From Sinohyriopsis cumingii (lineage: Eukaryota; Mollusca; Bivalvia; Unionida; Unionidae): a DNA stretch of 64,000 nucleotides. Position 1 is the first letter of the stretch, and each line of letters begins with the position of its first letter. The notes below the pieces were generated by a model. That model saw nothing but the letters and a program-made list of their open reading frames with translations. It had not been told where the DNA came from and made no database searches. The stretch spans positions 59,085,180-59,149,179 of the forward strand of contig CM068831.1 in the NCBI GenBank assembly GCA_028554795.2, read 5' to 3'. The translations under genes were made by a program, and so were the position numbers. Positions 17,543-55,000 of this stretch are shown here, one piece after another.

Positions 17543-17766
17543 TTACTTGCCCCAAATCCATGTGTTTATTGCTATGGGAGGCTAGCTCTTCTTCCTAGCC
17601 GACTAGTGATATTTCACTATTTACATACTGCAAAGTAACTATGGACAGTGTACATGCCTGACATCAATTTCAAGAACAACACAGGCCCAAAACACATAGT
17701 TCACAGATATATCCATTGCCTTAAATAGTAAACAATTAGCTGAAAAGTCACACCATAGCCTTAAGT

Positions 17767-17930
17767 TGTTGTTGTTGTTGTGGAGTTTAACGCCATTTTT
17801 CAGCACAGGACAAGCTATATATGGCGGCCAGTATTAAGGTGGAGGAAGAACCCGGGAAAACCCCAGAAAGAACCACCGACCCACGAGAAGCTACTGACAA
17901 GCTTTCTCACATACCCACATTGGCTGAATT
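17767..17930 (-). mobile_element. SINE2 copy A, 5'-truncated, with 10-bp target duplication
   Basis: A (GTT)n tail at the left end is followed by GGAGTTTAACGCCATTTTTC, ATGGCGGCCAGT, AAGAACCACCGACCCA and GCTACTGACAAGCTTTCT. The flanks are identical: TAGCCTTAAG at 17757-17766 and 17931-17940. The R3 copy at 61 kb has a single TAGCCTTAAG at the same place, proving the insertion. The tRNA-like head present in the 26018-26258 copy is missing. Confidence 0.88.
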
Positions 17931-25758: not shown

Positions 25759-26017
25759 CTGAAAAAATCTCAGTTTCTAAAAGAATGTGGTTTGTATAAC
25801 CTTACCTGATCATCTCTTTTTATCCTTGTGTTTTTGTTTGCACATTGTTAAAGAATTTTAACATTTTTACATTTAGTACTGTTACACTATCCTTTTGTTT
25901 CTTGGGAAGGGTTTATGTACCTAAAGTTTGTGCATCTTTTACCTTTATGTTCTTGGAACAATTTACTATCATGACTGTATAGCAAGAGATGTTTTAAGTT
26001 ACATTAAGCCCTATACA

Positions 26018-26258
26018 GGGTGGTGGAGTGGTCTATAGCGCTCAACTATGCAAATCACTGCCATCTCGTCTGTCAGCGTGGGTTTGAGTCTTGGGCTCAG
26101 CTGATGTGGTCATTGCAGAAAGCTTGCCAGTAACTTCCTGTGGGTTAGTGGTTCTTACCAGGCTTTTACTGGGTTCTTCCGCCACAAGTTCTACTGGCTG
26201 CCATGTACAGCCTTTTATGTGCTGAAATGTGGCGTTAAATCCCCAAAACAACAACAAA
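26018..26258 (+). mobile_element. SINE2 copy C, full length with 9-bp target duplication
   Basis: Head GGTGGAGTGGTCTATAGCGC (A box) and GGGTTTGAGTC (B box). The body contains GAAAGCTTGCCAGTAACTTC and GTGGTTCTTACCAGG, and the element ends with ATTTAACGCC-type sequence in reverse and an (AAC)n tail. Flanked by CCCTATACA at 26009-26017 and 26259-26267. This copy shows the whole family structure: a tRNA-like head and an AAC tail. Confidence 0.9.
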
Positions 26259-26454
26259 CCCTATACATGAATACAGACATACATATGCTTAATCTCATAT
26301 CTTCTTTCATTTTCGTTGTTAAACCTATCATTCCTAATCTTATCCACTACTTGGTCAACGTTTCAACAAATCCAAATTTTGTCTTTTCATCTTTTCATCA
26401 TTTTTACTTTACTATTCAACTGCTATCATATGTGGAATATAGCTTACTTAGGAG

Positions 26455-32563: not shown

Positions 32564-34567
32564 CTATTTGCATCTCTGAATGGGCTTAAACGTTTTATCA
32601 TCTATAAGCTCATAATCCATGTCCTTGTATATGGGAAGGTGATTTTTCCGATAATCATGCACATAATCATAAAGTTCCCGCACCACTCTGGGAATTGGTT
32701 CAAACTTGGCTAAGCTAGATATATCATCATTGTAGTTCCACTGACGAGGCCCCATAGTGTGGGCATGTCGAGGAGGCAGCCCTTCTTCAAGACGAGCTTG
32801 ATAGTCCCTTTCTGTATCACGATCCATTTCCTCTCGACTTGGGAGCACCAATGAACCATTAAGAACTGACAAGACAAACCTGACCTGACAATGGAATAAT
32901 GGGAAAGGGCAGATGGTCTTACAAATGCCAATGAAAGACAATGTATGGAACTGTGTATGAATAAGGTGCTTATACAGTGGAGTTATCCGTTCTTCTTCAA
33001 GCCTCAAATTACACTCCTCTGTGAGGAAAGGGAAGTTATACCTGTAGCCAGTGCAAAGAACCAGGGCATCTATCTCAACTTCCTCATTGTTACTGAATAC
33101 CACAGAATTCTTTCTTAGGTACTTGATGCTGGGCCTCTGCTCAACATTGGATGGAAGATCTGTTGTAAGGAAAGGCTTGTCATGACTGAGATAAACCTGA
33201 AAAAATAATTTCATTCAAGTAGATTTTGTATACATAAAACTAGCATACTTGCAAACACACTCCCACCCACCCCTGGTATAAATAAAAAATGTAGAAAAAT
33301 GTGAAAAATTGTTACTATGTCAAGAAAAATCTAACTTGGTCATTTACATATGCATAGAAACATATATACCCAGCTCTGATGGTCAGATATAAATGAACTT
33401 TGGTTATCTGTGTTAAAAAGTTTTTTCAAAACAACATACAAACTTGTTTTACTTGAGTATGAAGAGAAAAGATAAGGCGAGAACTGCACTTGTTTTTTTT
33501 CTTCAATCTACGCAAAACATATAAAATAAATGTCAATAACAAATCTAATGGTTTAGAATCCAATCTATTGATCAAGATTTGTAAATTGGCTGGTCTGATG
33601 TCATGGTTCTGTCACACATATGCTGCATATATTTAGTCTCCTATCAAGGGCTTCTTCTTAAGGACCACATTATAGACTTCATTAGTCTCATATTAAGGAT
33701 TTCTTGAGTACCATATTATGGACTTCATTAGTCTCATATTAAGGATTTCTTGAGTACCATATTATGGACTTCATTAGTCTCCTATTAAGGATTTTTTGAG
33801 TACCATATTATGGACTTCATTAGTCTCATATTAAGGATTTCTTGAGTACCATATTATGGACTTCATTAGTCTCATATTAAGGATTTCTTGAGTACCATAT
33901 TATGGACTTCATTAGTCTCCTATTAAGGATTTCTTGAGTACCATATTATGGACTTCTTTATTCTCATATTAAGGACTTTTGCATTGTAAATAAAAAAACA
34001 CAAGTGCAACTCTACTATGATTACTAATACTAAAGAAAAATGCAACATGTACAAAACAAGAACAAAACTGTATAACTCTACTTGGCTTACACGATCTACA
34101 AACCCTTAAATTATTGTTTAATCTGCTATATAGCGACATCAGGGGAAAAAATGCACAAAAATTTACAGAATGGTGAAAGATACATGGCTTGAAACCAGAA
34201 GCCTATCATTATGTGTTAAACATTTACCAAAATACAAGATTCACACCAAAAAATTCCCAATTCTAGGAATGGCTCTACCCTCCATTTTATTGCTGGAATC
34301 ATTCTTGTCCTACGTCAATATGAACATCATCCAGGATGAGTAGAAATGGAGATATTTAAGATGTCACCATGGCAGCTGTATTAGAAGTCAAATTAGCAGA
34401 AGTTTCATTTGAACCAACTAGACTTCATAAGATGAGAATAGTTTGGAAAAACTCTATGTCATTAAACTTTCCATTTAGGAGGAATAGAGATAATAAGACT
34501 TTCAAGATGGCCACCTTAAAAAGTTAATAGTTTTCACTATACCAGTTTTGTATGTTATGCTATTCAG

Positions 34568-34633
<66 letters not shown>

Positions 34634-37600
34634 GCTCCATACATATCATGGTTATGGACACCAACTGCTGCATTATAACGAGGTAGTGCTGCAATGAGCA
34701 ATTTTTGTACTTGGCCAAGATCATTAAGTTTGCATACTACCAACAAATGTGCCTGCTATGCAGCACTTGACATTCTCTACCTTGTTCAAAACCAGACTAG
34801 CATTTTCTGCACACTAATCCTTGTATATGCAACAGTGGCGTTTGTCAAATTGTCAAATGCAAAACTACAAAAATGATGTATACCTGTGAACGAGGAAAAA
34901 AGTTAAGGAACAATAGGTAATATATGTTCCGATAACTATGATGTAGATTAAAAAGAAACAGGTCTTCTTGGTTTTTGACGACTAACTCTTTTATGCCACA
35001 AAAGCTGTAAATATGATCAAGTAACAAAATCCTGAGATCATATTTGCAATTAAAATATAGAGCAGATCATCACCTCAGCTGTCTGGGGGACATTTTTTAT
35101 GGTGGTCCCATTTCCACAATTACAAAATGGGAATTAATCAAGTTTTGGCCTGGTTTTGTGCTTTATGGCACAGCAACACATGTTGGTTATTTGTGCCAAG
35201 GCAATTGGAATAAAGTGCCTTGCCCAATGGATGTGTGATGTGATGTGATTTTGATTTTTAACATAGTTTTAACAATTTTTCAGTCATATCACTACAATGT
35301 CTGCAGTGTGGCAGTTTATAGTGATGTCTAGTACTGGGGCGTCATGTTGTAGACATGTAGCATGATGTCCCACCCAGTCACATTATCCTGACACCAGGCC
35401 GACCAGTTCTAACACTAACCTCTTAATGCTGAGTGCCAAGCGAGGCAGCTGTTAGTACCATTTGTGTAAGTCTCTGGTATGACTCGGCTGGGAAGCGAAC
35501 TCACGACCTACCACATCCGAGGCAGACGCTCTAACCACTAGGCCACCGGATCGGTTGCCTTGCCCATAGGACACAAGTGTAGAGCAAATTATTATTCTGT
35601 GCATGTTTATAGGCTGATTGCTGGAAAAAATAAATAAGTTTGTGTCCTTTTTCCTTCATGTAAAAGTAGGCCAAGATAATTCACATCACAGAATGTCAGT
35701 GACACTTCTATAGGTGGCTCTCACCAGATAATATGTACTTTTGAGAGAGTGATGTATGTAAGGTGAAGTAGTTCGCATTTAAAACATGCACAGTGGAGAG
35801 AATGTTTGCATACCTCTATGCTACATTAATGTAATGTGGATGATATTTCTTTTGGATATTGTACTTTTGGAAATTTTACATGATTTAAGCACACTGCTAA
35901 CTAAAATGACTGCTCCCTTGTGTTAAAAAAATCAGTCTGAATTAGTCTAAAGTACACTATACATAGCAGCTATTAAAATAGGGAAAATGCAATGAATGAA
36001 TTACCAAATATATAAAATGTAAAAAAAGTTATCGGCTTTTTTATACAATTTACCTCTGAAGTTCAGGAAGTGAAAATGACCAAGTAGAGCTAGTACTTTT
36101 TTGAAAGGTGCACATTTGAAGTAAGGCCAAGCTGTATACTCTATAACTCATAGTACACCCATCAATCATACACCAAAATAAAGGGAATTAAAGGTTCTTT
36201 GCATTATACCTAAGATATACAAGGTCTTTTTTAAATAGCCAGTATAACCAGTGAGGAAAGTCAGGGACATTCTTTTTCTTTAAAATCCTAACTCTATGCA
36301 AAATGCGAAACTGTATAGTGCCACCTTAAAGAAATATAAAAATGTTTGCAATTATTTTTTTTTATTTTCATATAATTATGTATGATGTTCTGAATAAAAT
36401 GGTACATTCATATTGATGTTAAGCATGAAAATAAGCTAATTATGATCATTTTTCTCTTGCTTACATAATTTGCCATGAGGTATGTTTGTGTGAGTAGTGA
36501 CCTTAATTATGGGGAAATTAGAAGTCTTAGAATATAGGAGTAGAGTCAATTTAAATTTAAAACTGTTGCAGTAAGTGACAGAAATATATGGTGAAAATGT
36601 TTCTTTTCATTTATTTGCAATGAAATAAAAAATAAATGAAGAGAAAGTGAATTCGCTTCTTCCATATTAAACAGTAGGCAAATATTTTACACTTTGACCT
36701 TTATGAACCTGATGAGTTACCTCCCTTATCTAATTGTAAAATTCATTGTTGATATCTCAGAAATAATTCTGGCTAGTTTCATGTTCCTGTCATTCAGCAT
36801 AACATTGGTTGCTATGTTTACAAAATGTAATGTGCATTCTTAAAATAGCTCACTTTTATCATGGGGGGGGTAGGCTGGACTTGTTAGAGACTCTGACACT
36901 CATAAATACTGTTCTGTGGGGGAAAAGGAAGGAGGATTATTCAAAAGGATTGTTTTGATGCTTGCAACTTAAATGTTTCAGCCATATAAACATAATTAAA
37001 TCATACAAAAATAATACCTATATCTTCTTTATGGTGGCGCTCACCAGATAATATGTACTTTTGAGAGAGTGACGTATGTAAGGTAAAGTAGTTCGCATTT
37101 AAAACATGCACAGTGGAGAGAATGTTTGCATACCTCTATGCTACATTAATGTAATGTGGATGATATTTCTTTTGGATATTGTACTTTTGGAAATTTTACA
37201 TGATTTAAGCACACTGCTAACTAAAATGACTGCTCCCTTGTGTTAAAAATTCAGTCTGAATTAGTCTAAAGTACACTATACATAGCAGCTATTAAAATAG
37301 GGAAAATGAATTTTGCCAGACTAGACAATACCAGCTTCTGAAAGTGCAATGAATGAATTACCAAATATATAAAATGTAAAAAAAGTTATTGGCTCTTTTT
37401 TATACAATTTACCTCTGAAGTTCAGGAAGTGAAAATGACCAAGTAGAGCTAGCACTTTTTTGAAAGGTGCACATTTGAAGTAAGGCCAAGCTGTATACTC
37501 TATAACTCATAGTACACCCATCAATCATACACCAAAATAAAGGGAATTAAAGGTTCTTTGCATTATGTCTAAGATATACAAGGTCTTTTTTAAATAGCCA

Positions 37601-40600
37601 GTATAACCAGTGAGGAAAGCCGGGGACATTGTTTTTCTTTAAAATCCTAACCCTATGCAAAATGCGAAACTGTATAGCGCCACCATAGTAACTCTAATTT
37701 TGAGGTAACTATTTGACTGAAGACAGCAATTTCACAAAATCATAGCAAGACAATTTTTAAAATTTCATAAAGTTTAATGAGGATTTCTTTTCATTTCAAA
37801 CATGTAGTAAAATAGCTGTTTTAGGTAAATGTTTTGAACATGCTCAATATTTACCTCCCTATACTTACTTTTCCTTTTGCCCCCACCATTTACCCTATTC
37901 AGGTGGTGGAAACAAGTCACCCCACTGTAAACTTTTAGTACAGTATGGACCCTGTTATTTTTCTGCTTGTTTAGCAAATAAAGGAAATAACACTTAAGGA
38001 TTAGATTTGAAACAGATATAAGACTTAAATATTCCATGCTATCTATGTTGCTTTGTACTTTAATTCTCTTGACTAATCAAGCTTCCTTTTGGCATTCCTT
38101 GTGAATCAACTTTGATGACTGACATACCCTGTCAATCAATCTTGATGACTAGCATTCAATGTCAATGAACCTTGATGACTGGTATATCCTGTCAATCAAC
38201 CTTGATGATTGGTATACCATGTCAATCAACATTGATGATTAGCATACCTTGTTCATCAACTTTGATGATTTTCATTCCTTGTCAATCAACTTTAATGACT
38301 GGCACACTCTATCAATCAACCTTGATAACTGGCGTACCCTATCAATCAACCTTGATAACTGGCGTACCCTATCAATCAACCTTGACAACTGGAATATCCT
38401 GTTGATCAACCATGATGATTAGCATACCTTGTCAATCAACCGTAATGACTAGCATTCCTTGTCAATCAATGTTAATGACTGACACATGGAATATCCTCTG
38501 GATCAACTTTGATGATTGGGATGATGCAATATTGTCCCACTGTCCAATTTCAAAGCTAATGAAAGAAATACAAACTTGTTGACAAGCCCATGTTTCTCAG
38601 TCAACATGTCTCCAGCAGGTGCAGCAAGCAGACCTGGTTATTTTTAACCTGTATACACATGCCACTTACCTTGCTCTGCTTAGTTGTTGTAGTACTGATT
38701 CAGCCACATATAGCCAAACCTGTAAATAGCAGCCACCCACTGAGAAAAGGCTAGAAGTGACATTTGTACAAAGGTGACCTTTGTATGAAGGTTCACCTTT
38801 CAATCTTGGTTTATGAAGAAATTTAGCACACTAAATACTATTATTATTTTGTGCACTAATCAACAAAATCAAACATGTATATATGTATATTTTTTTCTCT
38901 CACAAAGTTATATTCCATTCAATATTACTGTATTCTGCTTACTTTGATCCATGTCATAAATTAAATCAGTGACTCTTTTAAAAAAAATCACTGATCTTTT
39001 TTTTTGCAAAATGACAAAACACTTATTTCAAATGACACCTAACATATGATTGTGAAAGATTGAACTGACTCTTTACTCTGCTAAGGTGTAATTAGGCTCA
39101 GAAACAGCTGTTTACACTTCAAACACTATCTGGATTAACCAGTTCTTCAGCTCACTAAGATCAAAAGACAGTTGGCTCATGTGAGAGGTCCGTGATGAAT
39201 GAAAAGAAGCTTCATGTTGTTATTGTTAGTAACCCATGAACCAAAACTTCGCCTGCACTAAAGACAAGTTTTGTAAATACTGAATGACCCCTGACCCTTT
39301 ATAAAAAGGGATGCATGTTGTATCTCTCAAAGGATGAATTCTTATATTGGAGATCTTTAATTTGCAGGCATATAAAACAGATGCAGATACTGAATTATAC
39401 CGGATACATTGACACAAAAGGTACTCCTGTTTATGCTACGACAGCATGAATACTTGTACCCACCATCCAGCAAACAAACTGTTTTATACCCTATCTTCTA
39501 ATAATAAAAACATCCTGGCTTTCGAATCTGACTGGTGACCACGATATGATGGTGACCCATTTGAACAGGTTTGACGATATTTCTAAACTTGATAGAGTCA
39601 AGTTAGATTTACCCCCACTATCTTGATAAACTTTACAAATTAAATGTATGTGTGATTGGGAGAGATAGAGATAAAGGCTGGTGGTCATTAACTTAAAGAT
39701 ATAGAGCACAGATTTACATAATACTGACTTTGTACAGTGGTTGCTGTAATCCATCTATTTCATCTTTAACAACTTTGAAATTCTTTTAATTATGGTTCCT
39801 ATGATATAGTCTGATTTCAAAATAAAACAAAATGTAAACTTTTGTGTAATGATGTTATTTTGAATACTGTATTTGTCACCTTATGAACTGAGAGAGAGAA
39901 AGAGGCATGGGGAGTCAATAATTTATATGCCAAAAGCAACAAAAACTACTGATGAACATTATAAATGACTTGTCTTGGAAACCTTGAAAGATTCAATGTT
40001 GCCTAAAGAATTTGTGGTTTTTCATATATATATTGTACACACACACACACACACACACACACAATAAAACTGAAGCAACATCTACCCGAAGCAGCAAAGT
40101 ATTTGAACCTGTCTCTCTTGTTGTTGTTGTTGTAGATTTTAACACCATTTTTAAGAACAAGACAGGTATACATGCATGGTTCCCACACTTTTCTAAAGAT
40201 AAATTTCCAGGTCATTTCCAGGATTTTTTCCAGGATGAAATTACTTTTTCCAAGGTTCAGATATCATCATTACTGAATGGAATTAATGAACATTTTAGAT
40301 TAAAAACATGCATTTTCTAAATCTAAAGATGTTTCTCTTTCAAGGCTCTCCAAAAACGCCGAAGTCAGAAAAGATGATCATGTACAAAACCACAAAATGT
40401 ATCACATGAAACGAGTTTGATTATATTCCTATTAACTGGCACGTAAAGTCATTTCAGTGTACAGAATAAAAATTCTAACTTTATTTTGCTACATTATACT
40501 GCTAAACAGGAACAACATAATGAACATAAATTATGTTTTGTTTCCTTTCAAACATTTAATTCTAAAGAATTCTATAGCAATATATATATGCATCTCATAG

Positions 40601-43600
40601 CAAGTAACATTTCCTATTACAGTATAAAAGAAAACAATAAACGCAAATAATTATGATCTTGTAACAAAGAGTTTAACCCTGAATTTATCTGTGCCAATAA
40701 AATCCCAAACAAGAGTTTTCAAAGAACCTAATCTCCTTAACCCTTTACCTCATGCAAGCGTCTTTGGACGCCTCTACTCCATTCGTATGGAAGCGCCTTC
40801 TGACACCTCTATTCCATTCGCATGGAAGCGCATTTTAATGCGTGCTGTAAACATCAGCCCTTTTGAGCTGGTTTTCGTTGCGCCACCTTCAGGGAAAAAA
40901 CCCCTATTAGATACTACATTCATTTCTGCGAATGACAATTATGTCAGATCACGTGGTCACTGCTTATGCACTGATCGATATCTGCTATTTAAAGTAACTG
41001 GGTCATAATCTCCACTTTCCAAAATGGCGGTCACGGATTTCATTCAGTACTTACGAAGTTCTCATGATTAGAATCACAACTATGAAAGATTCAATAACTT
41101 AGGTAAAGGCTCTGATATTGATGTAGGCAGCAATTAGATTTTATAAATTATCAAATTTAGATGACTTAGTGATGTAGACACAGATGAAAAACTTGTAAAT
41201 TTCGAGTATGAGAAATGGCAGCTATGGTTGGTCACGCGGCCTCACTGACATGACGGTGAACGAGTTCTCTCAAGATTTTAAAGCACAAAAAATTCTTCCA
41301 TGAAAAATAATTACATAGCTATAACAATCAGACTTTATTCTTAAATTTTTCCACATATAATAGATGTGTATCAAAAATGTAAAATGGTTAAAACTGCTGT
41401 TAAATGTAACATATACTACATTGCTTAACAGTTCACAGGCAGGCCTATGCATATGGAGTCGACTAGGTAACAAGTGTTCTATTTATAGCGTGCTGCACTA
41501 TGTAACTATGCTCTATGAGGTAAAGGGTTAAGACGATCTGGTTAAAAATCCATCATTTAAAAAACATTTTCAAAAGGGTTGATTTAAATTTTGACAAAAG
41601 ACCTTCAACATTATATACTGTTGTATAAACAAGGATTGCATTTTCTGTAAAATCAACTTATCTTCTTATAATTCTTTAAACCAGTCCCCAAACCTGTACT
41701 GATACAGGGGCTCATATTGTTTTATAATATATAATACAAAAAAACGACAATTTGTCATTTCAGCTCTGAGATTCAACAATTTGGACTACAAATTTGGCTT
41801 AAAACATACAGCAGTCCGTTTTCTAATCTGAATTTCCTCCGAATATTCGCACCCCATTTTTCATATTTGGACATTTAGTTTGGGGTGTGGGTTCATTGCA
41901 ACTACATATTGAAAATTTGGAATTTGCTGCCACCATGCGGTAGTGACATATGGTAGTCACTTACCAGCCGGCCTAGACAATTTAAATTTGTTATATCAAC
42001 TCATACTGCATAAAATGGATAGGAAAATGATTTATTTTCTCAGAAATGGCAAGTATTATAATTGTTATGTCATTAGTCCACTGACAGACAAGATGAAACT
42101 ACGGCTTAGATGAAACCTGATCCAGTACTCGCCATTTGCATTACTAGTCACATGACTTCACAAATCTCAAATGACGACACTGGAAGTCCAATAGTCACGT
42201 GATATCAACAACAAACTTCTTTATAATGTTGTTGTACAGAAATTCAATTATATTGAATGAAAGTTAGATACTTTTTGTAAAAACCAGCAATCTGGCCAGT
42301 CTGATTTATCAAGCAGAGAGCACATGTCAATGTGGTAGTCACGTGATACAGCAAAACTCCAGAAGTTTTTCTTGGAATATATAAATATGGAGAATTTTGT
42401 GTTCTTTCATTTTTGTATTTTTATTACAACCAGTAAACAACTTTTCTTTAATATTTTTTTCTTTCTCTACAACATTTGAAAATGTGGGCTGTTAGATTTG
42501 TGTACTCATGAGACTAGCAATGCAAATCGCGAGTACCAGGTCACATTTCATCAATGATGTAGTTTTATCTTGTCTTTTAGCATATTAAAGACATAACAAT
42601 TTTAATACAAATTCTGAGAAAATAAGTAATTTTCATATCGATTTTATGTATGTATCACTTCATCTAACAATGTTTAAAGTTTGCTAGGCCATCTGGTAAG
42701 CGGCTATGCTTTGTCACCACCATGTTGGTCTCTTGTGATGCTAGACTGGTTTTCATACCTTCCATGTAAGGAAAGATATGGATATCGAGCTGACTTTGAA
42801 AACAAAAGTCTAGCAGACGAATCTAATCCACTGGGCATTTGGATTGACCAGCATATATGCTTATTGCAAGAAACCAAATGACTCATATTGCACCCTCCGA
42901 ATATTCTGGTTAGAACTTGAAAAATTTAACTCAACGATCAGTTTAGTTATGACTCAATTATGTGACTGTTTCGGGTATCAAGTGGTGGCAGAAAATTCCC
43001 AGGTTCTTCCTGACTTTCATCAATATGCGAAATTCAAGGACTTTTCACGGCCAGGAATTTTTTTTATCATTTCTCCTGACTTTTTCCTGATTTCCTGGTA
43101 GTGTGGGAACCCTGTACATGGCGGCCAGTATAAATGGTGGAAGAACCCTGGAAACCCCAGGAAGAACCACCGACACCGCGAGCTACTGGCAAGCTTTCTA
43201 ACAAACCCATGTTAGCCGAGCCTGAGACTCAAACCCATGCAGACAAAGTGGAGATGGGATGATCTTGGTAAATGTTTTTTTTTAATATGGAAGTAAACTA
43301 TATTCTTCTGTGCAGAATTTTAGGATGATCAAACCTGCAGATTTTTAAACTGTTTGCTGATTTGTGGCAGATTAGGCAATTTTTTTATTTTCTTATCCTT
43401 TGTACAATTTTTGGCAGTCATGATTTTTTCAAGGAATTTTCAGTATAATAAAATCATAATGTTGAATCCTGAAACGGACACTATGAATGACTGATGAAAG
43501 ATTATAAGTAGATCATGAAACAAACATCCACCTTAAGTCAGTCGAGAAACAGTAATTGCAAGAATTTCTTTGTATAAGGGACAACAGTTTTTAGCAAGCT

Positions 43601-46600
43601 TTGTTCTCTACTGAATCCCCAGAGACTGCATTCTCTTGAATAATGACCATTAACAAGTCCACTCTCTGTACCTGCTGGGGACAACCTGATGTGAAAGCAT
43701 GCTGGCTAGTAAAAATGTTAGCCCTACTAAATTTGAAACTGCTGCAGTAGGTACAACAATGCTGCATCGGCCAATTGGCAAGGCTGACTGACAGGGTAAG
43801 CCAAAACGAAGCTAGTGGGCAGTCATGGGCAACATAAATATAGCCCAATACCCTGCACTGCTAGTATCAACAATGAAATGTTCAAGCCTTTATTGCTGTA
43901 GTTTTAGATCTTCCACCTGTTTAGCTTTCAGTGCTATGTCCATGCTGATATCTTGTCCTGAGGCAGCAGCACCAAGACAGACAACACGAAGATCTGCATA
44001 ACTCTCTGGCTCTCGATAGTCATGACTGTGAATCACTTGACCAGCAAAATCCTTCAGTCCCACAATATCTGGATACAGAGGCACAGAGTAATGCCTGGAA
44101 AAATAAAACAGGTTTTGGATCACATGACCAGCAAGTCCTTCAGTCCCGCAATATCTAGATACAAAGGCACAGAGTAATGTCTTGAAGAAAAAAAAGGGGC
44201 CTTGAAGATGTTTTCAAAATCAGCTGTAGTGCAAGAAAAGGGTGCACAAATTTAGTGATAAATAATTACCAGACTCTATTTCTTCTGCACTCTGGTCAAC
44301 CTATATGTACTTGTCTTGCATTTATGTTGAAGACGAGGCAAAAATGTACCTAGTATCAATTTACAAGGAAAACTAATATTTGTACTTATTGCCTTTTGGT
44401 TCTGAAATATAGCCAACACATGATTGTCCATTTTTTTTTGTTCATGGGAAACTGCTGTCTGAATGTCCTGTTAAGTTTATAAATGCAATATTTCTCAACA
44501 GAAACATTCAACAGTAACATTCAAACAAATTGGGGTATTTTTGATGTCATTGTGTAGTGATACATTCAATCTCTGAGATTATAAATGATTCCTGTATAAA
44601 TTTAACATCTATAAACTAAACTTTTCATTTTCTTATCATAATATAGTCAAGATATTAGTATTGTATATTAATATATTTATGGGAACATGCTTTCTATGAT
44701 AAAACATTCTTTCAAAAGATTATATGTTGATCAAAAAGGAAGGTTTTGGTGGGTTTTGATTTTTTTCTGTGGGACTGCAAAGGAAAATTTTACTAAATGG
44801 TGAGAAGGTTGAATGTTCCTTGACCTAAATGTATGTTGTATACATACTGATTAAATAACAAGTTTATTTTTCAATGCAATGGAAAAACATTCTGTTAAAT
44901 TCCAGTGTTTGAAATTGATTCAAGTTGATTCATCACTGCAAGCTGACACAAGTTTGCAGAAGTTTTAGAGATTCCCCTACTTGCCAAAGCCTGCATTATT
45001 TGTACAAGCTAGTGCAAGCAACTTTGTTAACTTAAAAGAAAGATCAGACAAGATCATCATAATAAGCTTACCAAAAAACTTGCAACAAGTGTTCTGCAAG
45101 GATGCATTTTGGTTTTGGTTAAAGCAAAATTGTGATATTTTGAGAACTCCTCCATTCTGGAACAAAAGAGCTGTTTCTGAGCATCATGCAGATAGAGTCT
45201 TGTATGTAAATAACTGCACTGATCCATGTCAGTCTGTGTCATGTAGATAGAGAATTGTATGCAATAATCTGTACCTATCCATGTCAGTCTGTGTCATGTA
45301 GATATATAACTGTATGTAATTATCTGTACTGATCCATGTCAGTCTGTGTCATTTAGATACAGAATTGTATGTAATTATCTCTACTGATCCATGTCAGTCT
45401 GTGTCATGTTGATACAGAATTGTATGTAATTATCTGTACTGATCCATGTCTGTCTGTCATGAATACACAGAATTGCATGTAAATATCTTTACTGATTCAT
45501 GGCAGTCTTTGTCATGTAGATACAGAATTGTATATGAATATCTGTACTGATCCATGACAGTAAATGTCATGCAGATACATAATTGTATGTAAATATCTGT
45601 ACTGATCCACTGTCAGTCTATGTCATGTAGACACAGAATTGTATGTAAATATCTGTACTGATCCATGTCAGTCTTTGTCATGTAGATACAGAATTGTATG
45701 TAAATATCTGTACTGATCCATGTCAGTCTTTGTCATGTTGATACAGAATTGTATGTAAATATCTGTACTTATCCACATCAGTCTGTGTCATGTAGATGCA
45801 GAATTGTATGTAAATATCTATGCTGATACAATGTCAGTCTGTGTCATGTTGATACAGAATTGTATGTAAATATCTGTACTGATCCATGTCAGTCTGTGTC
45901 ATGTTGATACAGAATTGTATGTAAATATCTGTACTTATCCACATCAGTCTGTGTCATGTAGATACAGAATTGTATGTAAATATCTGTACTGATCCATGTC
46001 AGCCTGTGTCATGTAGATACAGAATTGTATGTAAATATCTGTGCTGATCCATGTCAGTCTGTGTCATGTTGATACAGAATTGTATGTAAATATCTGTACT
46101 TATCCATGTCAGTCTTTGTCATGTAGATACAGAATTGTATGTAAATATCTGTACTGATCCATTTCAGTCTGTGTCATGTAGATGCAGAATTGTATGTAAA
46201 TATCTGTACTGATCCATGTCAGTCTGTGTCATGTAGATACAGAATTATCTGTACTGATCCATAACAGTCTGTGTCATGTAGGTACAGAATTGTATGTAAA
46301 TATCTGTACTGATCCATTTCAGTCTGTGTCATGTAGATACAGAATTGTATGTAAATATCTGTACTGATCCATTTCAGTCTGTGTCATGTAGATACAGAAT
46401 TGTATGTAAATATCTGTACTGATCCATAACAGCCTGTGTCATGTAGATACAGAATTGTATGTAAATATCTGACTGATCCAAGCCAGTTTGTGTCATGTAG
46501 ATACAGAATTGTATGTAAATATCTGTACTGATCCAGTGTCAGTCTGTGTCATGTAGATACAGAATTGTATGTAATTATCTGTACTGATCCAATGTCAGTC

Positions 46601-49600
46601 TGTGTCATGTAGATACAGAATTGTATGTAATTATCTGTACTGATCCATCTCAATCTGTGTCATCTAGATACAGAATTGTATGTAATTATCTGTACTGATC
46701 CATCTCAGTCTGTGTCATCTAGATACAGAATTGTATGTAATTATCTGTACTGATCCATCTCAGTCTGTGTCATCTAGATACAGAACTGTATGTAATTATC
46801 TGTACTGATCCATCTCAGTCTGTGTCATCTAGATACAGAATTGTATGTAATTATCTGTACTGATCCATCTCAGTCTGTGTCATCTAGATACAGAATTGTA
46901 TGTAATTATCTATGCTGATCCAATGTCAGTCTGTGTCATGTAGATACAGAATTGTATGTAAATATCTGTACTGATCCATCTCAGTCTGTGTCATGTAGAT
47001 ACAGAATTGTTTGTAATTATTGTACTGATTCATGGCAGTCTGTGTCATGTAGATACAGAACTGTATATAAATAATAATGTGACTAGGTGGGACATGATGC
47101 TACACGTTTGCATCATGATGCCCAAGTGCTAGACTTCATTATAAACTGGCACAAAGCAAACACTGTAGCAATATAACTAAAATTGTTAACGCTACATTAA
47201 AAATCTAAACCACACATGTACACACATATGTGATGTGATTGATTTCATTGAAAGAGAAGTATTTAACAGTGATGAAAAGGATATTATATCTAATGAAGGT
47301 AATCCTTCATTGATATCTTCAAGAATTTAAGAGAACATCATCAAGGTACAGAATAATGCTTCAGCTGACATTTTCATGTTAAGTGGGCCATAACACAATG
47401 TAAATTTGAGTGACTTAAATGATTACCCATTACAAACTATTACAGCATCAAACAATTCCCTGCAGCTCTGATCCCTCTCTTTCACAGGGCAATAGGTTAC
47501 CTCCCATGAAGTAAAATTATCTCCCTTCAAAGGACGAACTGTCTGGACTATTGTCTGAAACTGAAATACAGTAATTTTCATCAGTGTTAAGTCCTGTTTA
47601 CATGACAGAACTTTAAAACTAAAGTAATATTAACTGAAAATCAAGTTTTTGTAACAAAACAACGATCAGATTTTTGAATTATAAGGGGAAGCAATATCTA
47701 GAGCATGGCTGTCAAAAGTCACGAGTTATATATATTACACAGTATACAGCAATTACTTTTACTTAATGATGTAAAGTATATCCCTGCGGAAGTTCCATGA
47801 CATTAGTTTTGACAACAAAACATGTCCCTATTACGTTCCATGATATAATGTTTCATAACAAAACATGTCCCCCATAGAAGTTCAATGACATTAGTTTTCA
47901 TAACAAAACATGTCCCTGTCAAAGTTCCATGATGCAAGTTTTCACAAAAAATTATGTCCCTGTGGAAGTTCATGACATTAGTTTTCATAACAAGATATGT
48001 CCCTGTTAAGTTCCATGATGTTAGTTTTTATAACAAAACATGTCTCTTTTGAAGTTCCTTGATGTAAGTTTATTACACAATATATCCCTGTGGAAGTTCC
48101 ATGATGTAAGTTTTCATAACAAAAGATGCCCTGGAAGTTCAATGACATTAGTTTTTATAACAAAATATGTTCTGTTAAGTTCCATGATGTCAGTTTCTAT
48201 AACAAAACATGTCCCTTTTGAAGTTCCATGATGTAAGTTTATTACACAACATATCCCTGTGGAAGTTCCATGGTGTAATTTTTCATAACAAAATTGTCCC
48301 TGTGGAAGTTTATGACATTAGTATTTTTAACAAAATATGTCCATGTTAAGTTCCAAGATGTTAGTTTTTATAATAAAACATGTCCCTTTTGAAGTTCTAT
48401 GATGTGAGTTTATTACATAACATATCCCTGTGGAAGTTCCATGGTGTAAGTTTTCATAACAAAACATGTCCCAGTGGAAGTTCCATGATGTAAGTTTTCA
48501 TAACAAAACATGTCCCAGTGGAAGTTCCATGATGTAAGTTTTCATAACAAAACATGTCCCAGTGGAAGTTCCATGGTATAAGTTTTCATAACAAAACATG
48601 TCCCAGTGGAAGTTCCATGATGTAAGTTTTCATAACAAAACATGTCCCCATCGAAGTTGCATGATGTGTACGTAAGTAACCTTTAGTATAAGTACTTGCA
48701 TCCTGGACACCTGAAAATACCTAGCCTCGGATCCTAAATTTTTTAATCATGAATCATGTGGACCATTATTAACTAAACCTGATCCAAATTGTTTTCAAAT
48801 ACCACAATTCCTGAGAAAACATATTTTTCTCAAGTAGTGATTTTATACATACATAAAATAAAGTGGCAATAAAAGAATAAAATGAACATGAAATATGTAA
48901 GAATCATATTCACACAAAATCAAATGCACTACCATAATATTTGTATTATTCTGGATTCAAATGTGCATAATAAACTGCCCCAAAATGCATTTTTTAAAAA
49001 TGAAAATCACTGCAGCATAAAATCTAGTTCACATGACCTAGTTTTGGCAATATGGTGTTGTGTTCATTAAGATGCTTCTACAGACCAAGCTGCATAACTC
49101 TGCTTGTAACTGTGCCTGAGAAACTAATCAAAATGCAAAACTTAATAGCAATAAATCAAGCATGAAATTCAGGTCACAGTTTACGTACATTTTGTAACAT
49201 GGTGTTCTACCCATGGCACCATGATGCACATACACGCCAAGTTGCACAACTGGGTCTAATAATGTTCCCAAAACATCAATAAATGCAAAACATAATTGAA
49301 ACAACTGGAAAGTGAGCTTCACGTCAAAGTGATCTACATTTGCAAAGATGGTGGTGTTCCCAGCAAGATGCATAAACACACCAAGTTAAATGACTCTGGT
49401 TTAACAATGCCAGAGAAACTGACCTAAATGCAGAGCTTGCCAAAGTGTGATCTATTCATATACTGTATATATGGATGGATATGGGTAACACTATATTCCC
49501 CCTTGAACATACTGTACATATGAATGAACAAGGGTAACAGTATATTCCCTTGAACATACTGTGCATGTGGATGAAGAAGGGTAACACTATATTCCCTAGA

Positions 49601-52067
49601 AACTGCTGTACATTTGAATGGACAAGGGTAACACTATATTCCCCCTTGAACATAGTGTTCATATGGACAAGGGTAACACTGTATTCCCTTGAAACTATTG
49701 TACATATGGATGGACAAGGGTAACACTATACACCCTTGAAACTACTGTACATATGGATGGACAAGGGTAACACTATTCCCCCTTGAACATACTGTACATA
49801 TGGATGGACAAGGGTAACACTGTATTCCCTTCAAACTACTGTACATATGGATGTATCTTGAATATACTGTACATGTGGATAGACAAGGGTAACATTACAT
49901 TCCCTTCAACATACTGTTCATGTGGATGGACAAGGGCAACACTACATTCCCTTGAACATACTGTACATATGGATGGACAAAGGTAATACTATATTCCCTT
50001 GAACATATTGTACATGTGGATGGACAAGGGTTAAGCCACCCTTATTCAGTTTGCAAGTGATGATGTAAAATACAGTTAGCAGTCACTGCCCTGACTTTTG
50101 ATAATGTACTGGTATTCAGTCAGAGAAAATATGGTCTCATCCACAAACAAAACAAGCCTTGTTTTTAGAAGTGAACGTCAAAGCAGTTCTAATGCTGTAA
50201 AATCAAAAAGGTGAGTTTGTAAACACAGGCTTAGAAGTGAAATTCAATTTTAAAATATTAGGGTTTTTTTAAGTTTTTTTTCAAAGGTTTCAAATTTTGT
50301 ACAACATTATCTCCATGTTGAGTATAACATTTATGAAAAATCTGATCAAGTATGCTTTGATTTTGTTTCTAAATACAGTGAAAATAAAGACAAAATGAAA
50401 ATTAATAAATAATTTAAAAAAATAAATACCTGCAGGTGCTAAAAAATTTGCATGCTTTCTTTACCGCAAAGCTAGCCTTATGAAAATTGTGTAACAAAAA
50501 GCATTTTTGTGTGGTCATTTTCCCTCCCACAAAACCAGAGAAGTCATAAAGCCACATTTTATGATGTTATCAAATGACCTGGGAAGGTGGCCTGTTGCTG
50601 CACAGCTAAGGTCCCCACCTGATCGAGTTGAGTCCTTTGGGATGAAAGATCTCTCTGGTAAATATCAGAGAATGTGGACTCAGATTTCCATCCCAAGGCA
50701 TGGATAAGGTCAGTTTGAGAATTGTTCCAGTCAAAGGCAATGCTGGTGTCAACCTCATGAGCTGAAATGTGTAACAAATTCATCTGTGTTGGAGTTATTT
50801 CTTTATATTCAGAGCGAATAATCCACTTAATTCAAGATGAGAGCATCTGTGCTGTTGTATCATCCTGACCCTCTCTGAGAAGTAAAAACAGGTGTGATAT
50901 TACTCGATGCAATGGCTCTGTCTTATTAGTGTAACACTTCAGGGCTTGTACTGGTACCTGTAGATGGCCATGAGTGGAAATGTCCAGTGTAATCGGTGAT
51001 TTCAGTACAAAGGACTAGTTGCCTATGGATGGAAACCTGTTCTTGGCAATGAAAAAAGGAACCATCATAAGTGAAACTGGCCAGTCATGTCGGGCCTGTG
51101 TGTACTTCAGGTCCCCTGCAGGGGCATTTATTTCAATGATTTTGTCTGCAGTCACCAATGTAATAAGGAAGCAGGTCTTGTATGAAAGGAGAGGCAAAGA
51201 TGCATTTGAAATTGGTTAAATGGTGTTTTGGTCAATCAGGTTAGTGCCCATGATAAGTTCCATTTGGACACAGGGCCAACATTTATAATGAAAGTTGGAA
51301 AGAAAGTCAAGTAAGTTTTTGTTTTGTCCAATATCTTCTCTTCCATGATGACAAAAGGTGTCAGCGATTGTGGAGCGATAACCTTTGGTTGTGCTTGGTG
51401 CTAAATTTTTCTCATCGAAGAGCCAGAGAGGGTATTAGCTATTTCAGGTATAGATGTGTTCTTGTGTCCACCATTGTGTAAAGAGTTTCTATTTGCCTTC
51501 ATACACTTTCAGAGTGGAGAACCTTCTTGCTTGAGCAATTCGTTCCATGACTGGTTGCAAGAACTGTCTTAGGGCCTGTCTGATATGATCCAGATGCACA
51601 GATTCAATGGGTTTGGGCTGGGTGTGAAACATCCACTGTCATGGTTGTTTGAAGATACAAGGGAAATTCATTACTTTTTGTAGAAGTTCCATTGCAAGAA
51701 TGAGGAGGTCGTTCATCCACAATTTCTCCAATCTGAGTTGAGTAATGAGAATGAGGCAACACATTGCTTCTCATGCTTTTTGTATCAGCTTTGGAGTCAG
51801 AGGTGTTGGAGGTTAGGCATATGCATTGAGGCCATTCCAATCTATGGGTAGTACCTCAACTGTCCAGGCTTGGGATCTGGGACTAGTGAGACAAAGGATG
51901 GGAGCTCAGAATCTGACCTTTTCCCAGCCATAATAACTGAAAAAATCCAGTTAATCCATAACCTAATTAACTCACTGTTGATGCAGAAAGCATTTAACAT
52001 AAAGCCCTTTTTCTTTAGGTGGAGGTGAATACATACATGCATGATTTAAATTTAGAACTGGTATAAT

Positions 52068-52099
<32 letters not shown>

Positions 52100-55000
52100 T
52101 GGGGAAGCCCTCTGACCTTAATATACTGGTAAAGTTTGTAGTGTGTAGCATAATCCTCCAGGTACTGGAGCACCTCTTCATGACTGATAAAAGATGGGGG
52201 ACCTTTCTTGAAAGGAAAATCTGGGAATGCCATCACCTCCTTTGGCAGATTGGTTCTGAAGATAGAAATTTGACTACCTGTATATAAATATACAAACATT
52301 ATGTAGACAATAATGTATCATTCTGGGTGACTTCAGTTTCTCAGCTGACAAAAAAGGGTATCAGTGACCTTTTAGTTTTATACAAAACATGTACAGTAAT
52401 AAATCAGTTGTGCAAATGACACTTTTTCAGAACAACAAGGTTTCCCAAAAATACATCACCTACTCTGTACATATTTATGTTGTCTGGAAAGCTAAATATA
52501 TGGGTAAAACCATATCTGCAGGTTAGTTCAGAAAATCTAAGTTTTAATGAACCATTCTTATCATCATGTTATTTTTTATATTAATGCAACAAATCCTGCT
52601 GAAATAGGGGTGTATAGATATGAAAGAGAAAAAGTTCCTGATTCCACAGTTCAAGTACAATAAAATGCCATGTATAATACTCGGCCATAAATAATATTCC
52701 AATATATTTGGGAGTAACAAATATGGCAACATTGTACAATTAAACATCACTAGCTTGTTTCCAGATCTTTACTAGCTGAGTAGGTATTGCTCATTATTGC
52801 ACAATACCAGACAGAAGTAACAGCGTGTTGTGTAAATGTATTGTCATAAAGATTTCATACTTACATACACAAATGTCATTTTTATTATTATGTACATGAC
52901 TATAAAATTTGCCTGTCAATGATGTATATTTATTCCCTGAGGCACCAGTTCTCAGCTTATTTTAAGTGACAATAATTTACCAGATCAAATAAAATGTATT
53001 TATTTCGTAGCAACAGTACCTTGGTTGCCTGTCAAAGGGGGAATTTTATGTGTTTCTGCCTCACCCCACCAGCTGTAATGATTCAAGATATAGAGATTTG
53101 CTAAAAATGTAGGGGGACACTTACAATTTGGAGTGTGAATTTTGTTTGGGATTCCTCTAAGTGCAAAAATGCAGCATGCCTAGCTATTTGAAAATATTTC
53201 ATAATGTTCAATATATACTTGAAATGATTACTTCATATTAATTCAAGATGGTAATTTTTAGTTCTCCATGCCAGAGATATGATTTCCCCTGAGATGCCTC
53301 AACTGTAACCATGCATGTGTTACATGGCAATAATTATCTTTATTGTCTGTAAATATAAGGATTTTGACTTTTACACAAACAATAAAAAGCCACATCATCC
53401 AATCAAAATAAAGAAGTTAAAATCTGAACACTCTAACTACGTGATCGAGACAAAGGGGAGCACACAACTTGAATGGACTGATAAATAAGCAATTTTCCAG
53501 TGACGGTCCATGTTTGCACAAATACCTTTCACTCAAATACCCCTGTAATGGCTTCCCTCTTATACAATGTCATATTTTCGATGTTAAACTTACAAACTAT
53601 CCCTTTTAGATCAATTGTCACCACTGTTTTCGGTCGCTGTACAATGCAACACACAACTGGTTCATTAGCATTACATACTAAGGGAGGCAACTCATGAAAT
53701 GTAATAGATGTCGCTAGGACAAAGCACCAATATAGCTGTTCGATCCACCAAGGTATAGATAGGATTCAGAACCTTGGCTAGCGAAGATGGTTTGGGAATG
53801 AATTTAAATACATCTTAAAATGGAATCGTTTAAATCTGTACCTACTTTGAAGGAGACAGGTAAAATGTAATATGTCCATGCACAAGTGGTATGATCCAAG
53901 AAAAAACAGCATGTTTCTCACTGCCATAATTAATTTCAGACATTACTGGTCATAGCAGAGAACAGTTGTGGAGTGACAAATTCAATGCAGGACTATGCAT
54001 ACATGCTGCACAGAACTTGTTGGTCTAGGTACAAGACTGCAACTGGATATGTGTGGACTGCTGGGGTAGTTTATGTACATGACTCCCTCAGACATAAGCA
54101 TTAGCAAAGCAAAAGGGCATGTTAACAAACATTTGTGCCATGCATCATTGCAATCTTCTGTCTTCACATCTTTATGTAGATTATTACTGTTTGGGTAGGA
54201 CCTATTAGAAGGATGCTCTCTCTGATTAAAACTGATTTTGACAATCAGCTCTTTGAAAACACTATGTTTTCATTGACTTCAAAATATTTTAGAAAACCTA
54301 TCTTTAAACTGTTAAGAAACCCAGTTTGTAATAGTTTTGTGTTTACACAGTAAACATTATTTAATTTCAATTTACAAGCATTTTCTACACAAGTCAAACA
54401 ATCTTGTGAGTTTGACCAGATGTCAAATGATACCAGTTGGTTGCAAAAATGTATAAAAATTCTGTCCCTATTTATAATGTGCACAGCTTAATTCTGAGGG
54501 AATTTTTTGAGAATAAATATTTGAAAGTTTTACATTACGAAAGCCTTCCACACTTGTGCATTTGGGACCTATGATCATATAGGAAAACTTAACAAAGAAT
54601 TCAAATGAAATTATCTTGCATGAGAGGCAAATGGAGAATAAGGATGATGGATATGAAGGGGGCAGAGATTTCATATCAATCCAAGTATGGTAGCCTTTCA
54701 TCTAAGACTCAGGACCATAAACAAAAAATTGTAACCACCAACTTTGCCAAGATCTTCAAATGAAGAGGGTCAAATGGAGGGCTGGGGTCAATGAATATGA
54801 CATGATAGGGTAATATGGAGGGCTGTGGTCAATGAATATGACATGATAGGGCTAAATGGAGGGCTGGGGTCAATGAATATGACATGATAGGGCTAAATGG
54901 AGAGCTGGGGTCAATGAATATGACATGACAGGGCTTCTTTTTTACAATCCAAGTATGATAGCTATCCATCCATTTGGTTGATACTTTTATGACCATACTG

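Follow-up and report, generated by a model that had tools for sequence, protein, structure and literature searches.

Three successive insertions into a single intron of an animal FMO gene are the best explanation of the stack described here, and we give this reading a probability of about 90%. A piggyBac-like element lies inside a hAT-like element and this inside a SINE, all within FMO intron 4, and the arrangement looks real. An earlier note on this DNA had claimed three mutually nested layers, and boundary evidence for each was recovered, by a SINE profile together with the TACATG flanks, by TIRs, and by TTAA. The relative insertion order that it had drawn for the three families, with the SINE first, the hAT-like element second and the piggyBac-like element last, is also supported. 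The parts of the stack are as follows, numbered within the window (the whole stretch of 64,000 nucleotides that was analysed):

40118-40174, minus strand: 3′ part of the SINE, with a tail of CAA units in the SINE sense, ending in one TACATG (profile match 40121-40174; outer end approximate)
40169-40174, unstranded: left copy of TACATG, likely target-site duplication (junction alignment, profile)
40175-43114, unstranded: hAT-like non-autonomous element spanning 2,940 bp, or 2,149 bp once its insert and one TTAA are subtracted (TIRs, exact 6-bp flank)
40737-40740, unstranded: left TTAA target-site duplication (terminus search)
40741-41527, unstranded: piggyBac-like non-autonomous element, 787 bp, with perfect 13-bp TIRs CCCTTTACCTCAT (TIRs and TTAA)
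41528-41531, unstranded: right TTAA target-site duplication (terminus search)
41919-42167, plus strand: long imperfect inverted repeat, left arm (77% like the right arm, E 1.35e-43)
42494-42999, minus strand: right arm, 42494-42728 and 42983-42999, interrupted by 254 bp at 42729-42982 (alignment)
43115-43120, unstranded: right copy of TACATG, likely target-site duplication (junction alignment, profile)
43115-43268, minus strand: 5′ and central portion of the SINE, with the second TACATG at its start and a box B-like stretch (profile match 43112-43219; end near 43268 uncertain)

How can the two halves of a broken SINE be recognized as one? The profile was built from the window copies at 17.8, 23.7 and 26 kb only, and the copy in the stack was left out, against circularity. 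With this three-copy profile, the left half (40121-40174) corresponds to model positions 19-74 at 23.2 bits and the right half (43112-43219) to positions 66-178 at 69.8 bits, while the top score in the reversed window was 5.2 bits. The two matches are in register and have nine model columns (66-74) in common; the final six columns read TACATG in each match, and the three ahead of them differ, with GTA on the left and CTG on the right.

The join itself was then a matter of alignment. Rejoined with one TACATG kept, the halves run without a gap through the junction against both the 17.8-kb copy (129/152, 85%) and the 26-kb copy (148/201, 74%); the left half by itself matches 17766-17823 at 84.5%. 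The 23.7-kb copy has a gap across the junction, so that only two of the three proposed copies test the join, and in both of these the rejoining that had been claimed passes. Because the halves are in register and the common TACATG flanks the insert, the most economical explanation is that an insertion interrupted one SINE and duplicated TACATG. The limits of 40118 and 43268 proposed for this SINE held less well than its halves: both halves are confirmed, and the outer ends are approximate, with the profile reaching just 40121 and 43219. No target-site duplication was found round the SINE, whose outer 5′ end is uncertain; the only exact match of at least six bases between the compared flanks was CAAAGT, which is ill-placed.

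Judged by eye from the 26-kb copy, the SINE looks tRNA-derived (SINE2). Common features with this class are the box A-like TGGTGGAGTGG and box B-like GGGTTTGAGTCT of that copy, both read by eye against the consensus, together with the conserved middle and the CAA-rich tail; the stack copy shows the box B-like part only. The fullest copy in the window, with both box-like stretches, spans 25990-26285. The SINE is dispersed, with three further copies in the window, and a profile that includes the stack copy gave two weak extra matches, one near 61.1 kb (E 0.005) and one near 24.2 kb (E 0.008). Within the window, a tRNA search with ARAGORN and an Rfam search at gathering scores each returned nothing. 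In viral contigs a SINE-core pattern had 0 matches; the looser pattern finds two of the four window copies and misses the one in the stack.

The element that split the SINE is called hAT-like from its terminal sequence and flanks alone. Its left terminus, 40175-40189, reads CATGGTTCCCACACT, and its right terminus, 43114-43100 on the minus strand, reads CAGGGTTCCCACACT; these are the TIRs that had been claimed, 15 bp long and alike at 14 of 15 positions, and they directly adjoin both copies of the exact 6-bp flank. With up to three mismatches the terminus has four occurrences in the window where 1.07 would be expected, and the two occurrences with zero or one mismatch are the ends of the element. 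Elements of the hAT superfamily end in CA...TG and frequently carry subterminal motifs in opposite orientation; here, the left side has TYCCAGG at 40205, 40216 and 40228, and the right side has CCTGR at 43009, 43075, 43086 and 43094, in opposite orientation. The short TIR CAGGGTTCCCAC is one that we take to be of the kind typical of hAT. The available text of PMC3942097 gives hAT TIRs as short, 10-25 bp, and the pair CATGGTTCCCACACT / CAGGGTTCCCACACT is short in this sense.

Are three layers the full count? Three nested layers stand, and the number may be too low, given that the hAT-like element contains a long inverted repeat that had been overlooked. Its arms, 41930-42167 and 42494-42728, agree at 77% across an alignment of 232 columns (E 1.35e-43), and the outer 17 bases of the left arm (41919-41935) pair with 42983-42999, beyond the 254-bp break. 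For this arm-end match the best ungapped score was 29, and none of 300 dinucleotide shuffles exceeded 22; the test was chosen after the match had been seen, which counts against it. The inverted repeat is either the hAT-like element's own or perhaps the remnant of a further insertion. There is a real chance, falling somewhat short of even, that it is a separate long-TIR or foldback element inserted there and that the 254-bp break is yet another insertion, giving four or more layers; the likeness of the arms, the recurrence of the outer 17 bases past the break and the presence of CCACCATG at both arm ends all speak for it. However, the CCACCATG pair follows in part from the near-palindromic arm end and hence makes no clean duplication, and a scan for such a duplication round the internal inverted repeat found none. 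The boundary 41919/42999 gave just 5-7-base matches at ill-fitting ends (e.g., GAAAATT for 41918/42990), and the window holds no other copy of the inverted repeat. An inverted-repeat pattern had 0 matches in viral contigs. The 254-bp stretch at 42729-42982 has TGTTGG and TGGTGG at its edges.

A second question concerns the length of the duplication at the ends of the hAT-like element. According to the accessible part of PMC12730594, hAT duplications are usually 8 bp, and groups with 5, 6 and 7 bp have been described. In the single copy at hand, 6 bp are exact and 8 bp are reached only with one mismatch. An ordinary hAT element whose 8-bp duplication would read TATACATG to the left and TGTACATG to the right is a doubtful alternative, which draws on the three letters ahead of the duplicated site: the three-copy SINE profile carries CTG before TATATG, and the right SINE match also covers the CTG before TACATG, so that TG at 43113-43114 could belong to the SINE, whereas the 6-bp reading gives CTG to the transposon. 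Against this, the 8-bp reading costs the right TIR its terminal CA and leaves the ends unequal, and the 6-bp flank is exact. The 6-bp duplication is the simpler reading, with one copy insufficient to decide.

Kapitonov and Jurka reportedly dealt in 2007 with a hAT6 group of hAT transposons. If its flanks are read as an exact 6-bp duplication, the outer element has this in common with hAT6 as presented in the available text of PMC12730594; it differs in that no transposase was found, so that it cannot be assigned to a group, and the 8-bp reading with its mismatch stands beside the 6-bp one. It is improbable that both departures from the simple picture combine, with a hAT6-family element carrying an inserted long-inverted-repeat element that was in turn broken by the 254-bp insertion, making at least four and perhaps five nested insertions.

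The innermost element was given in the earlier note as a TTAA element at 40741-41527 with 13-bp TIRs, and this was borne out by perfect TIRs with TTAA on both sides. The sequence TTAACCCTTTACCTCAT is exact at 40737-40753 and at 41531-41515, and a window search with up to three mismatches returned these two matches against 0.19 expected, with two or more in 3 of 100 shuffles. The window contains 2,123 perfect inverted pairs of 17-mers no more than 5 kb apart (the first 30 listed were all AT runs), and the single pair that begins with TTAA is that of the 787-bp element. TTAA is the target site of piggyBac and is also targeted by Kolobok. The insert is called piggyBac-like, again from its ends and flanks only: it has the TTAA duplication and a TIR that begins CCC, with CCCTTTACCTCAT at both ends.

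Close comparisons come from corals, whose piggyBac-like TIRs, as given in the accessible text of PMC2872659, measure 13-16 bp and begin with CCCTTT (several), CCCATT or CCCTTA. As far as that text describes them, AmiPB1 and the CMITEs share with the inner element a 13-bp TIR beginning CCCTTT at TTAA and a non-coding interior, but the remaining TIR bases differ, the CMITEs measure 96-108 bp rather than 787 bp, and the element here carries a 35-bp tandem repeat close to the left end (40751-40831). That the inner insert is Kolobok-like rather than piggyBac-like is very unlikely: Kolobok is known from molluscs and other animal phyla, going by the available parts of PMC9587614 and PMC10294476, but the CCCTTT terminus and the 13-bp TIR are those of the piggyBac-like elements described in PMC2872659.

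A non-autonomous copy need not carry a transposase. In the six read-through frames of 40100-43300, Pfam matches with E up to 1 included no transposase remnant and consisted of two weak, unrelated matches only (E 0.13 and 0.41); the whole-frame Pfam scan of 43950-53940 overlooked FMO exons 2 and 3, so that such scans are insensitive here, perhaps the transposase scan too. As no transposase domain was found in the stack, the hAT-like and piggyBac-like elements are non-autonomous or decayed. The family names proposed earlier fit the termini and flanks and are yet unproven, since neither a transposase remnant in the stack nor a second copy of either element within the window was found.

The mechanism would then comprise three steps. 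First, a tRNA-derived SINE would have landed in the intron by target-primed reverse transcription, as its class suggests. Second, a non-autonomous hAT-like element would have been pasted into the SINE, presumably by a hAT-type transposase acting in trans; the doubling of TACATG is seen directly. Third, the 787-bp non-autonomous element would have been pasted into a TTAA site within the hAT-like element, probably by a piggyBac-type transposase, and here the TTAA and the TIRs are what is observed. All layers are probably now inert passengers that are removed with the intron by splicing.

What can such a stack be used for? It places three element families of this genome in a relative order, and the termini of its elements are usable for annotating these families. 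No general open question hangs on it; the nesting of transposons is common, and this is ordinary genome layering. The TinT approach is said to work for dating through the nesting of transposons. Nested transposons have already been used for dating in the available portions of PMC3014933 and PMC2517846; TinT, as set out in the former, shares with the present case an activity order obtained from interrupted elements, and differs in using genome-wide counts rather than one stack.

The host gene lies on the minus strand, with the following parts:

58321, minus strand: ATG of FMO exon 1 (Pfam profile 2-47)
near 52.25 kb, minus strand: FMO exon 2 (FMO-like motifs in translation only)
near 47.5 kb, minus strand: FMO exon 3 (FMO-like motifs in translation only)
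ending at 43917, minus strand: FMO exon 4 (Pfam profile 158-209)
33197-43916, minus strand: FMO intron 4, site of the stack, 10,720 bp (donor AAACAG/GT, acceptor TTTTTTCAG/G)
33196 to the TAG ending at 32564, minus strand: FMO exon 5 (Pfam profile 294-415)

These exons carry the FMO domain and lie to either side of the stack, all on the same strand and in the order of the profile, and the best PDB match of exon 5 is 5nmw, named flavin-containing monooxygenase (E 1e-29). With splice sites at 43917/43916 and 33197/33196, exon 4 ends and exon 5 starts on either side of the stack, which therefore lies in intron 4, in agreement with the location claimed before. The SINE and the FMO gene run in the same sense. 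Together, the gene and the elements point to an animal host.

The window also contains other repeats. An 86-bp unit is present in 1.9 copies (87% matches) at 44032-44195, taking in the beginning of FMO exon 4 together with the bases ahead of it, so that a second, altered exon-4 start stands just upstream of the one read here. In FMO intron 3 a 55-bp unit is repeated in tandem about 34 times (45184-47073), and further tandem arrays occur near 21.2, 27.1, 47.8, 49.5 and 56.3 kb.
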